Part shown: one piece after another, positions 52,267 to 56,171 of the stretch
Layout: every line of letters begins with the position of its first letter
Position numbering within the stretch: the stretch's first letter is position 1
Assembly (NCBI RefSeq): GCF_017068395.1
Contig: NZ_CP070619.1
Span: 6,200,001 to 6,264,000, forward strand
DNA: 64,000 nt
Source of the DNA: Rhodococcus pseudokoreensis
GTDB taxonomy: Bacteria > Actinomycetota > Actinomycetes > Mycobacteriales > Mycobacteriaceae
Direction: 5' to 3'
Translations under genes and position numbers: made by a program
The notes under the pieces: generated by a model
Told to the model about the DNA's origin: nothing
Databases searched by the model: none
The model's input: only the letters and a program-made list of their open reading frames with translations

Positions 52267-52360
52267 CGGCCCATCCTGCCTGATGCATTCCGCACCTCAC
52301 GTTTCGGTCGTGGCAGACGTCTACCTTTCAGACGCCCGTACACCTGGAAGGATTGGCACC

Positions 52361-52867
52361 GTGAATGCCGACCGAGCAGCACACACTGTCATCGATTCGC
52401 CGATCGGCCCCCTGACGCTGGCGAGCGTCGGCGGGGTGCTGAGCGGCATCTACATGGTCGAACACCGGCACCAGCCGAATCCCGCGACGTTCGGGGACCG
52501 CGACACCGCAGGGTTCGACGAGGCAACCACTCAGCTCGCCGAATACTTCGACGGACGGCGCACCGATTTCACCGTTCCGCTCGCCGCGCGGGGCACCCCG
52601 TTCCAGAAACGGGTGTGGGACGCACTGCGCACCATCCCGTACGGCGACACGTGGACGTATGGTCAGCTGGCCGATTCCCTCGGCACCCCGACTGCGGTGC
52701 GCGCGGTGGCGGCGGCGAACGGCAGGAATCCGATCAGCATCATCATTCCCTGTCACCGAGTGATCGGGAGCAACGGCAGCCTGACGGGGTATGCGGGCGG
52801 TCTCGACCGCAAACGGTTCCTGCTCGAACGCGAAGCGGAACGGGCGGGGCTCCGGCTGAGCCGATGA
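52361..52867 (+). CDS. ogt: Methylated-DNA-protein cysteine methyltransferase (first copy)
   Basis: A 168-residue suicide methyltransferase that moves alkyl groups from O6-alkylguanine to its own cysteine. The acceptor is C131 in IPCHRVIG, with the usual [24 protein letters not shown] and the C-terminal [12 protein letters not shown]. All conserved parts are present, so it should be active. The GTG start follows GGAAGGA at workable distance. It opens a six-gene operon and overlaps the sigma-factor gene by ATGA. Confidence 0.92.
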
Positions 52868-53355
52868 CCCTGAAGCCGTTCGAAGACGTCGTGGCCGAGC
52901 ACGGCCCGACGGTCCTGCGGGTCTGCCGGGCCGTGGTCGGTCCGGTGGACGCCGAGGACGCCTGGTCGGAGACGTTCATCGCCGCGATGCGCGCGTACCC
53001 CGACCTGAGTCCGGAGAGCAACGTCGAGGCGTGGCTGGTGACGATCGCCCACCGGAAGGCGCTCGACCACATCCGTGCCCGCGACCGGCGGCCCGTCCCC
53101 ACCGACGAACTGCCGGAGCAGACCACCGACCGCGGACTTCCCGGCGGCCACGACCCGGAGTTGTGGAAGGCGGTCGGCGCCCTGCCGATGAAGCAGCGGG
53201 CAGCGGTGGCGTATCACTACCTGGCCGGGCTGCCGTACACGGAGATCGCGGTGATCCTGGGCAACTCCCCGGCCGCGTCGCGGCGGGCGGCCGCGGACGG
53301 CGTTGCGGCGCTACGCAAGACCCTCTCGATCTCTGTGAGTGGAGACATCACATGA
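52864..53355 (+). CDS. ECF-type RNA polymerase sigma factor inside an alkylation-repair operon
   Basis: A 163-residue sigma factor. Region 2 spans about residues 5-75 ([20 protein letters not shown], then [23 protein letters not shown]). Region 4 spans about 105-155 ([46 protein letters not shown]). It has no C-terminal extension. It overlaps the MGMT gene before it and the second MGMT gene after it by ATGA, so all three are made in fixed proportion. No gene with recognisable anti-sigma features is adjacent. I infer that it directs transcription of the repair operon; this is not shown by the sequence. Confidence 0.88.
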
Positions 53356-53954
53356 ACATGCCCGACATCGTCTATTCCCTGTACCCGCTGGACTCCCCGG
53401 TGGAGCAGAAACTGCGTGAGCGTCTCGCCGTCGCCGCCGCCGAAGCCGGGCTCCTCGACGTCGCGTACCGGACACTCGACACCCCGGTCGGTTCGCTGCT
53501 GCTCGCCGCCACCGATCGCGGGCTGGTGCGGGTCGCCTTCCCCAGCCAGGATCACGATGCCGTGCTGCAGACCCTCGCCGAGCAGATCAGTCCCCGGATC
53601 CTGCGCGCACCGGCCCGGCTCGACCGGGTCGCCCACGAGATCGACGAGTACTTCCTCGGCAGGCGCACGAGCTTCGACGTCCCGCTGGACTTCCGGCTGT
53701 CCAAGGGATTCCGGCTCGAGGTGCTGCGCCATCTCCCCGACATCGACTACGGGCACACCGCCAGTTACGCTGCGGTCGCGGTCGCCGCGGGCAGTCCGAA
53801 AGCGGTGCGTGCGGTCGGCACCGCGTGCGCGCTCAATCCGCTGCCCGTGGTGGTGCCCTGCCACCGGGTGGTCCGCAGCGACGGCAGCATGGGCCAATAC
53901 GCCGGCGGGCCGGAGGCCAAGTCGATTCTGCTGACCCTGGAGGCGGCGGCATGA
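53352..53954 (+). CDS. Divergent methylated-DNA-protein cysteine methyltransferase (second copy)
   Basis: A 200-residue protein with an MGMT domain from about residue 37 to 200 and acceptor C170 in VPCHRVVRSDGS. An extra N-terminal segment (residues 1-36, VYSLYPLDSPVEQKLRERLAVAAAEAG) looks helical and is not part of the usual MGMT fold. The usual FQxxVW motif is replaced by FRLEVLRHLPDIDYGHTASYAAVA, as in Ada C-terminal domains. It lacks the Ada N-terminal zinc and AraC domains. Its place right behind a sigma factor suggests it may sense alkylation and control that factor, as well as repair DNA. That is a hypothesis. Confidence 0.88.
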   Translation: MNMPDIVYSLYPLDSPVEQKLRERLAVAAAEAGLLDVAYRTLDTPVGSLLLAATDRGLVRVAFPSQDHDAVLQTLAEQISPRILRAPARLDRVAHEIDEYFLGRRTSFDVPLDFRLSKGFRLEVLRHLPDIDYGHTASYAAVAVAAGSPKAVRAVGTACALNPLPVVVPCHRVVRSDGSMGQYAGGPEAKSILLTLEAAA

Positions 53955-54661
53955 GCACCGTGACGCACCGCGTGAACGCTCTGGATTGGCCGACACTGCA
54001 CGCCGAGACCGACGCCGCGGGATGCGCGCAATCGGAGCAGATCCTGACCGCCGAGGAGTGCGGGCAGATCGCGGACATGTACGAGGAGGTCGAGCGTTTC
54101 CGGTCCACCGTCGACATGGCCCGGCACCGCTTCGGCTCGGGACAGTACCGGTACTTCGACTATCCGCTGCCGGAGGTCGTGGCCGAACTCCGCGCCGCGT
54201 TCTACCCGAAACTGCTTCCCGTGGCTCGGGACTGGGCGGTCAAGCTGAGGCAGCCGTCGCCCTGGCCGGACACCCTGGACGAATGGCTTGATCTGTGCCA
54301 CGACGCCGGTCAGAAACGGGCCACGCCGATCCTGCTCAGTTACCGCGCGAACGACTGGAACGCCCTGCACCGCGATCTCTACGGCGAACTCGTGTTCCCG
54401 TTGCAGGTGGTGATCGGACTCGACCGTCCGGGGGTGGATCACGAGGGCGGCGAGTTCATGCTGGTGGAGCAGCGGCCCCGCGCCCAGTCGCGAGGCACGG
54501 TGACGACGCTGCGGCAAGGGCATGCGCTGATCTTCACCACCCGGGACCGTCCCGTACGTTCGACCCGCGGTTGGTCGACGGGACCGGTACGGCACGGCGT
54601 CAGCACCATCAGACGCGGCACCCGCCGGACCCTCGGCCTGGTCCTGCACGATGCCGAGTGA
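53951..54661 (+). CDS. 2-oxoglutarate/Fe(II)-dependent oxygenase
   Basis: A 236-residue oxygenase of the prolyl-hydroxylase-like 2OG-Fe(II) superfamily. The iron triad is H140 and D142 in ALHRDLYG with H215 in VRHGVS, and R225 or R226 in IRRGTRRTLGL would bind 2-oxoglutarate. It is distinct from AlkB, which is the next gene. Its place in the repair operon, coupled on both sides, suggests it removes alkyl lesions or modifies a protein in the same response. The substrate is unknown. Confidence 0.82.
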   Translation: MSTVTHRVNALDWPTLHAETDAAGCAQSEQILTAEECGQIADMYEEVERFRSTVDMARHRFGSGQYRYFDYPLPEVVAELRAAFYPKLLPVARDWAVKLRQPSPWPDTLDEWLDLCHDAGQKRATPILLSYRANDWNALHRDLYGELVFPLQVVIGLDRPGVDHEGGEFMLVEQRPRAQSRGTVTTLRQGHALIFTTRDRPVRSTRGWSTGPVRHGVSTIRRGTRRTLGLVLHDAE

Positions 54662-55323
54662 CCGTGATGTCTGCCTTGATACCCCGCCCCCGGACCGTGG
54701 TCGCGCCCGGTGCCGTCCACGTCCCCGACTGGCTCACGCTGGAAGAGCAACGCCACCTGGTGGCCGAATGCCGGGGATGGGCCACCGCGCCGGTCCCGAT
54801 GCGGGCCGCGCAACTGCCGACGGGCCACCGCATGTCGGTGCAGACGGTGTGCCTCGGCTGGCACTGGAAGCCGTATTCCTACTCGCGGACCGCCGACGAC
54901 GCGGGCGGTGGGCGTGTCGCGCCGGTGCCCGACTGGCTGGTCGAACTCGGCAGGCGGGCGGTCGGCGAGGCCTACGGGCAGCCCGCCGCCGGGTACACAC
55001 CCGATGCCGCGCTGATCAACTTCTACGACGACGCCGCGAAGATGGGCATGCACCAGGACAAGGAGGAACGATCCGACGCGCCCGTGGTGTCGTTGAGCAT
55101 CGGCGACACGTGCACGTTCCGGTTCGGGAACACCGCCACCCGCACCAAGCCGTACACCGACGTCGAACTGCTGTCCGGCGACCTGTTCGTGTTCGGCGGC
55201 GAGTCCCGCTTCGCGTATCACGGAGTGCCGAAAGTGTTTCCCGGCACGAGTGATCCGGACTGCGGGTTGACTACGGGCCGATTGAACATCACGTTGCGGG
55301 TGACGGGTCTCGAGGACACATGA
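54658..55323 (+). CDS. alkB: AlkB-type DNA dealkylating dioxygenase
   Basis: A 221-residue AlkB-family protein that oxidatively removes methyl groups from N1-methyladenine and N3-methylcytosine. The signature is complete: INFYDDAAKMGMHQDKEE with H132 and D134, H188 in AYHGVPK, and R208 and R214 in GRLNITLR. The start is a GTG whose TGA context overlaps the previous stop; an ATG three codons on (54667) is possible. It overlaps alkA by ATGA. Confidence 0.93.
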   Translation: MTVMSALIPRPRTVVAPGAVHVPDWLTLEEQRHLVAECRGWATAPVPMRAAQLPTGHRMSVQTVCLGWHWKPYSYSRTADDAGGGRVAPVPDWLVELGRRAVGEAYGQPAAGYTPDAALINFYDDAAKMGMHQDKEERSDAPVVSLSIGDTCTFRFGNTATRTKPYTDVELLSGDLFVFGGESRFAYHGVPKVFPGTSDPDCGLTTGRLNITLRVTGLEDT

Positions 55324-56171
55324 GAGTGCGCTTGCCGTATCGGGGTCCGTTCACCCATGCACCGCTGTGGGGTGCGCTCCGCGCGCACACCGTGTCCGGG
55401 CTCGAGCGGCACGACCCCGACGGAACCCACACCCGGGTGGTGGACGGACCGCACGGGCCTGCGCTGGTGTCCGTTCTCGTGCGTTCCGCCGACGGGTACG
55501 TCGAGGCGCACCTGACACCGGCGGACCCGGACGATGTCGAGGCGTTGACCGCCACGATCCGGCGCTGGCTCGACCTCGATGCGGATCCGCTGCCGATCGA
55601 CGTCGCGTTGAGCCGCCACCCGCAGCTTGCTCCGCTGGTGGCGCAGCGGCCGGGACTGCGGCGCCTGGGGAGCGTGGACGGGTTCGAGACGGCGGTCCTG
55701 ACCGTTCTCGGGCAACAGGTTTCGCTGGCCGCTGCCCGGACGTTCGGCAGCCGCCTCGTGGCCGCGTACGGCCGACCCGTTCACGACGGCTTCTTCGCGT
55801 TCCCCGCACCGCAGACGCTGGCGGCGCTCGCACCCGAACAGTTCCGTTCGACCCTCGGTCTCACCGGGGCCCGGGCCAGGACGGTGCTCGCACTCGCCGA
55901 GGCCGCGTCGAACGGACTTCGCCTCGGAGCGGACACCGACCCGGCCGAGTTCCGGGCCGGTCTGCTCGCGCTGCCCGGCATCGGTCCGTGGACGGCGGAC
56001 TATCTGACGGTGCGGGTACTGGGCGACCCGGACGCGTTCACACCCGACGACCTCGTCCTCAAACGCGCGCTGGGGGTCAAGACCGGCAGGCAGGCAGCGG
56101 AACTCGCCGAGGCGTGGCGGCCCTGGCGGGCCTACGCCCTGTTCCACCTGTGGACGGACGAAGCGTATTAG
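55320..56171 (+). CDS. alkA: DNA-3-methyladenine glycosylase II
   Basis: A 283-residue glycosylase of the helix-hairpin-helix family. The HhH motif LPGIGPWTADYLTVR spans about residues 218-232, and the catalytic aspartate is D243 or D244 in FTPDDLVLKRALG. LGQQVSLAAAR is also typical of AlkA. It removes 3-methyladenine and related bases. It ends the six-gene operon and overlaps the convergent MMPL gene by 4 bases. In Mycobacterium, AlkA is fused to an Ada-type domain; here it is separate. Confidence 0.93.
   Translation: MRVRLPYRGPFTHAPLWGALRAHTVSGLERHDPDGTHTRVVDGPHGPALVSVLVRSADGYVEAHLTPADPDDVEALTATIRRWLDLDADPLPIDVALSRHPQLAPLVAQRPGLRRLGSVDGFETAVLTVLGQQVSLAAARTFGSRLVAAYGRPVHDGFFAFPAPQTLAALAPEQFRSTLGLTGARARTVLALAEAASNGLRLGADTDPAEFRAGLLALPGIGPWTADYLTVRVLGDPDAFTPDDLVLKRALGVKTGRQAAELAEAWRPWRAYALFHLWTDEAY

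Follow-up and report, generated by a model that had tools for sequence, protein, structure and literature searches.

In this study, we have analysed a predicted alkylation-repair operon of Rhodococcus pseudokoreensis (assembly GCF_017068395.1, contig NZ_CP070619.1, positions 6,200,001-6,264,000), in which the gene of an extracytoplasmic function (ECF) sigma factor lies between two alkyltransferase genes of the MGMT type. The whole 64,000-nt stretch analysed is called the window, and operon positions are numbered within it. All six genes are on the plus strand: ogt (52361..52867, GTG start; PF01035, PF02870), for a methylated-DNA-protein-cysteine methyltransferase, with a likely ribosome-binding site, GGAAGGA, at 52346..52352; the sigma factor gene (52864..53355), whose 163-aa product has only regions 2 and 4 (PF04542 Sigma70_r2, PF08281 r4_2); the second MGMT gene, hereafter MGMT2 (53352..53954; PF01035, PF02870), for an Ada-C-like alkyltransferase; Oxygenase-NA (53951..54661; PF09859, 266 bits), a predicted 2-oxoglutarate (2OG)-Fe(II) oxygenase for damaged nucleic acid; alkB (54658..55323, GTG start; PF13532 2OG-FeII_Oxy_2), an oxidative DNA demethylase; and alkA (55320..56171; PF06029 AlkA_N, PF00730 HhH-GPD), a 3-methyladenine DNA glycosylase. 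Reading frames and Pfam domains agree with the six-gene operon described in the initial annotation, and the overlap claimed there for every junction was verified at all five, each of 4 bases (ATGA at 52864, 53352, 53951 and 55320, GTGA at 54658). NCBIfam matches concur with the Pfam gene names, but the named equivalog models score under their cut-offs, including the AlkB equivalog model for alkB. Upstream of ogt lies a promoter-like element, CTCACGTT-N14-CGTCTAC (52296..52324, plus strand; -35-like part 52296-52303, -10-like part 52318-52324), the sole CTCAC-N17-CGTYT site in the window and a putative recognition site for the sigma factor that the operon encodes.

On reading the sequences, the acceptor motif PCHR is found in both MGMTs and DAED in the sigma factor. 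The PCHR motif of MGMT2 contains Cys170 (codon 53859..53861, plus strand), which we take, from knowledge of the family, to be the alkyl acceptor. The N-terminus of MGMT2 is about 35 residues longer than that of ogt and includes a conserved helix-like L..RL...A stretch. Among solved structures, the best match of MGMT2 is the C-terminal domain of E. coli Ada, covering residues 35-198. The protein is 100% identical to MGMT2 of Rhodococcus koreensis DSM 44498. A third MGMT-like match occurs elsewhere in the genome (G000:C6:1813730-1814014, L193), with 41% identity to MGMT2 residues 105-197.

The initial annotation had proposed a search of actinobacterial genomes for the sigma-MGMT pair, and we found that the pair recurs. 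In the genus, the sigma factor is present in 26/28 genomes (24/24 of those of good quality, the two without it being 74-75% complete), with MGMT2 directly downstream in 25/26. In a class sample of 148 genomes, where the sigma factor was called at E <= 1e-20, it was found in 23, a set that takes in seven homologues at 42-46% identity; MGMT2 adjoins it in 22/23 and a contig end truncates the 23rd. Starting from MGMT2 instead, and using the best 80 of 180 loci, hence with a bias toward close relatives, the sigma gene lies directly upstream in 77/80. Taking, in each of these 77 loci, the possible MGMT2 start codon closest to the sigma stop, the two genes share 4 bases in 62 loci, 1 base in 6 and 8 bases in 5. 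The other genes come and go: among the 80 fetched stretches, 12 of which are shorter than 12 kb so that some absences of neighbouring genes go unseen, ogt was found in 39, Oxygenase-NA in 37, alkA in 15 and alkB in 12. All six gene types occur in the fetched stretch of only 6/80 public loci, compactly in L027-L030 and with alkA more distant in L089 and L098. As read from these sequences, the constant unit is sigma-MGMT2, the remaining operon genes vary, and the partner of the sigma factor is the second MGMT rather than ogt.

Could the sigma factor have a more conventional partner? Clustering of neighbouring genes gave no recurring anti-sigma gene, in a survey where the gene calls picked up the sigma gene in just 31/80 loci and neighbours were not put through Pfam; none was seen by eye either among same-strand neighbours (18 downstream, 25/31 upstream), again with no Pfam run. 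Apart from MGMT2, these same low-sensitivity surveys gave no constant neighbour of the sigma gene. Two side observations concern the surroundings and spread of the pair. In L070 and L101, a gene for a Tag-like 3-methyladenine glycosylase (named by eye) lies downstream of sigma-MGMT2, and in L099 and L093 the pair stands on contigs titled Sporosarcina and Melainabacteria, which are non-actinobacterial, either through horizontal transfer or because the contigs are mis-assigned.

The promoter-like element recurs as well. CTCAC-N17-CGTYT was found ahead of the operon's first gene (ogt or sigma) in 93/97 distinct upstream sequences, with a spacer of 17 in 92/93, and matched 7/1940 dinucleotide shuffles; the 97 are related sequences and not independent samples. 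The four upstreams lacking the strict element are L046, L089, L094 and L098. Of the 16 close sigma homologues in the class sample, 13 have the element before sigma or an ogt-sigma unit; in the seven distant homologues, a CTCAC or ATCAC box can be seen by eye just upstream of sigma, 17 bases ahead of CGT/CGA. At 46/50 loci where sigma comes first, its start codon lies 6-10 bases past the -10-like hexamer, which suggests a leaderless mRNA.

The element also appears where alkylation-repair genes are encoded apart from the sigma factor. In R. erythropolis-like genomes the oxygenase is encoded elsewhere, and in L108 and L119 5 bases separate the element from its start codon; matching coordinates alone suggest the same placement in G001, G003, G011, G017 and G022. 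Further cases with the element upstream are a distant oxygenase gene in G070 (L148) and, each on a separate contig, an ogt-alkA pair in G018 (L125) and ogt in G099 (L156); in G084 (L147), the element points towards a divergent ogt-oxygenase unit. In the set of 80 loci, the element was also found before Oxygenase-NA (L031, L032) and ogt-like genes (L038, L053, L091), before a SnoaL-like gene in five loci (L044:8763, L064:4481, L066:385, L088:4517 and L094:4935(-), with a Pfam check on L044 only) and before a short-chain-dehydrogenase-like gene, named by eye, that lies just 3' of MGMT2 with an element of its own (L052:6644). Such a gene, placed in the same way, is also seen at L138:1501 and L169:825(-). 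Across the class sample, the strict element occurs in 12/23 genomes with the sigma factor vs 5/125 without (Fisher 4e-8), the reversed pattern occurring 3 times. The 15 strict sites of the sigma-bearing genomes comprise 10 before sigma, ogt or oxygenase units, 2 after MGMT2, 1 before a different ECF-like gene and 2 unassigned; none of the 5 sites in sigma-less genomes is near any of the six gene types. At L143:1501, the strict element stands before a different ECF-like sigma gene, of 31% identity, which may share the promoter type.

Because the element is conserved before the operon and recurs before separate oxygenase and ogt genes elsewhere, a dedicated alkylation-repair sigma factor is likely. 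It is a strong inference from the sequences that CTCAC-N17-CGTYT is recognised by this factor, both before the operon that encodes it and before the separate alkylation-repair genes of other genomes; the sigma factor would then very probably drive the operon of the window and a small alkylation regulon in relatives. A dedicated sigma factor with its promoter class, a predicted repair regulon in relatives and a near-obligate partner in MGMT2 together make a well-supported, if sequence-based, picture.

Cases in which the pair has been separated inform on the relation between its members; the genomes concerned are drafts. In G013, the sigma gene (L024) has the element upstream and no MGMT2 adjoining; an MGMT2 of 62% identity lies on a different contig, its ATG 5 bases past the element. 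In G175 (L057), the element is 54 bases upstream of MGMT2, and the sigma gene, on a different contig, is preceded by a variant with CGTTTA. The genomes with loci L077 and L092 have MGMT2 and no close relative of the sigma factor (matches of just 33-35%), and inspection of the region upstream of these two MGMT2 genes gave no element. The opposite situation, apparent fusion, was met with a joined sigma-MGMT query: 21/120 listed proteins bear both sigma and MGMT Pfam labels. By eye, five of the 16 such records that were read (P0006-P0009, P0011) combine an undamaged sigma region 4 with a linker and a whole MGMT, and four are partial or mixed. As they are mostly single records, the fusions serve as supporting evidence only.

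Based on these results, we consider a sigma-driven alkylation response with MGMT2 as the cognate regulator, sequestering the sigma factor until it is itself alkylated, and would give this reading a probability of roughly 0.45. A self-amplifying sigma factor requires a brake. As MGMT2 is the sole constant candidate found for this role, it may well be a negative regulator, and we infer that it would act as a sensor whose inhibition is relieved by alkylation of Cys170. The sigma factor would be synthesised in a coupled fashion with MGMT2, which in its unmodified form would sequester it. Transfer of an alkyl group from DNA to Cys170 would change the shape of MGMT2 and release the sigma factor, the freed sigma factor would transcribe the operon, further MGMT2 included, and once damaged guanine is exhausted, fresh unmodified MGMT2 would end the response. 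Put more specifically, and a shade more tentatively, MGMT2 could be a suicide-enzyme anti-sigma factor: for each O6-alkylguanine repaired, one MGMT2 would be spent and one sigma factor freed, so that transcription would count lesions and reset itself. The adjacency of the pair, the overlap of its reading frames, the element, the split pairs, the apparent fusions, the PCHR motif kept in 80/80 MGMT2s and the element-less MGMT2s of sigma-less genomes are all consistent with sequestration.

Several observations weigh against sequestration or the regulon attached to it. Pfam gives MGMT domains only in MGMT2 and no recognised anti-sigma domain. The N-terminal helix, considered as a sigma contact, gives a mixed picture in the two sigma-less MGMT2s, being degraded in L092 and kept in L077. 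Seven fusion records (P0010, P0013, P0028, P0031-P0034) have a scrambled or missing region 4 and resemble frameshifts or deletions, and our alignment of 111 rows (A1) includes 10 fusion proteins, four of them frameshift-suspect. A structural model of fusion P0006 places a helix at 185-201, but with a predicted TM-score (pTM) of 0.54 its domain arrangement is not confident, and the sigma-MGMT interface that it might have offered was therefore dropped. In three class loci of one genus (L162, L163, L169), the strict element occurs only after MGMT2 and not before sigma. Finally, the genome of the window itself gave no established second target: beyond the operon it has one 1-mismatch site and two looser-pattern sites, and one of the three, L117, has none of the six genes nearby. 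A separate idea, alkyl transfer to a conserved cysteine of the sigma factor itself, was rejected as a general mechanism: Cys21 lies in RVCRA in 71/77 sequences and L038 keeps it in another context, but it cannot be required since it is Val in 5/77.

The explanation that competes best is that MGMT2 is merely a repair target. The sigma factor would then amplify its own operon under outside control, by a transcription factor or by proteolysis, and MGMT2 would stay beside it as the most useful product. The repair enzyme does look intact, a separated MGMT2 has its own element like other targets, and ECF sigma factors without anti-sigma factors are described elsewhere as being under transcriptional or proteolytic control, according to passages of a 2022 review (PMC8999054). 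But MGMT2 persists while other targets are gained and lost, and the frequent overlap with the sigma stop and the apparent fusions indicate a closer tie, so that we regard this explanation as rather unlikely. LexA was considered as the outside control and rejected. The window has 11 LexA-like matches at <=2 mismatches (4.68 expected by shuffling), none of them near the operon promoter, that is, between 47541 and 55163, and the match at 55163 falls inside alkB. In Streptomyces venezuelae, an alkB is described as being under LexA, a different control (PMC9380542).

Less probable still, in our opinion, is that alkylated MGMT2 is a co-activator, active only once alkylated, as Ada is, and aiding the sigma factor to bind RNA polymerase or the promoter. 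Passages of PMC4437013 describe E. coli Ada as activating transcription via RNA polymerase once methylated, and an Ada-sigma interaction appears in these passages and in a reference title. The solved structure nearest to MGMT2 is also the C-terminal half of Ada. Yet the trigger in E. coli is methylation of the N-terminal domain, a domain that MGMT2 does not have, and an overlapping gene downstream of a sigma gene is generally in the position of an inhibitor. That the sensor is another operon product (ogt or either 2OG oxygenase) or a free metabolite is very improbable, for these genes share the operon in the window's genome but each is often absent from the 80 stretches, as the counts given above indicate.

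The initial annotation also held that no Ada activator domain is present here and that the sigma factor replaces Ada. The first statement is borne out by a search with the Ada metal-binding domain (PF02805), which gave no match in the operon, including alkA, or in the whole genome (9.87 Mb, 6 contigs). The second agrees with what is seen in Rhodococcus and not with the class as a whole. Across the 28 genus genomes there is no full-length match to the domain: 19/28 have none, and the matches above cut-off in the other nine span only profile positions 20-65 of 65. In the class sample, PF02805 hits occur in 14/23 sigma-bearing genomes vs 96/125 others (Fisher p = 0.12), and a mutual exclusion of sigma factor and Ada is unsupported. 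In the two genus loci read, the partial PF02805 match (20-65) belongs to a small stand-alone protein encoded beside Oxygenase-NA, at L108:2244-2534 (28.3 bits) and L119:2244-2534, and similar open reading frames lie near the pair in L038, L053, L069, L072, L091 and L166. By eye, this small protein has Gly at the position of Cys38 of E. coli Ada, the methyl acceptor of the latter.

The association of sigma factor and MGMT is already in print, and the idea of the initial annotation, that a flanking alkyl-acceptor protein informs the sigma factor of damage, is a sharper version of it. In PMC8999054, ECF122 (Casas-Pastor et al. 2021) is listed among the groups without anti-sigma factors, 6-O-methylguanine DNA methyltransferases are named as its conserved neighbours, which "could be involved", and a listed member, WP_057211282.1 of Cellulomonas sp. 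Root930, stands under "Unknown mechanism"; its passages on the group name neither regulon nor mechanism. Matched to this description, the sigma factor of the window is probably an ECF122 member: it has regions 2 and 4 and no extension, its neighbouring MGMT is conserved (25/26 genus and 22/23 class genomes), and the genus of the listed member, Cellulomonas, also has the sigma-MGMT2 pair (L059, L078, L083, L100). Within open-licence PubMed Central, judged by title or the start of the abstract, we found no paper testing the sigma-MGMT pair, and ECF122 is mentioned in PMC8999054 alone. As the association had been described in the parts of the review that we cite, the weight of the present results is in the element, the regulon and the split pairs.

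The system also resembles, and departs from, better-known ones. Like the E. coli Ada response, it has an inducible-looking set of alkyltransferase, AlkB and AlkA and possibly a self-alkylated protein as the signal; unlike it, the Rhodococcus operon and genome lack the Ada metal-binding domain and a sigma factor stands in the place of the activator. The mycobacterial arrangement for alkylation repair, as described in passages of PMC7432924, is likewise an actinobacterial one in which Ogt and AlkA-type proteins are separate; there AlkA is joined to the Ada A domain, which the Rhodococcus AlkA lacks. With ECF sigma/anti-sigma pairs the system shares a predicted self-directed promoter and a partner gene that overlaps the sigma gene downstream, and it differs in that this partner encodes a DNA-repair enzyme with no known domain of the anti-sigma type.

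Several ECF groups that lack anti-sigma factors are without a known input, and here the input is open to guess and test. If the proposed mechanism is true, a self-consumed repair enzyme as the partner of a sigma factor would count lesions stoichiometrically and provide an adaptive response that needs no Ada. The promoter element predicts testable members of the regulon across many actinobacteria, and in Rhodococcus, a genus employed to degrade pollutants, the sigma-MGMT2 system may be the main response to alkylation.

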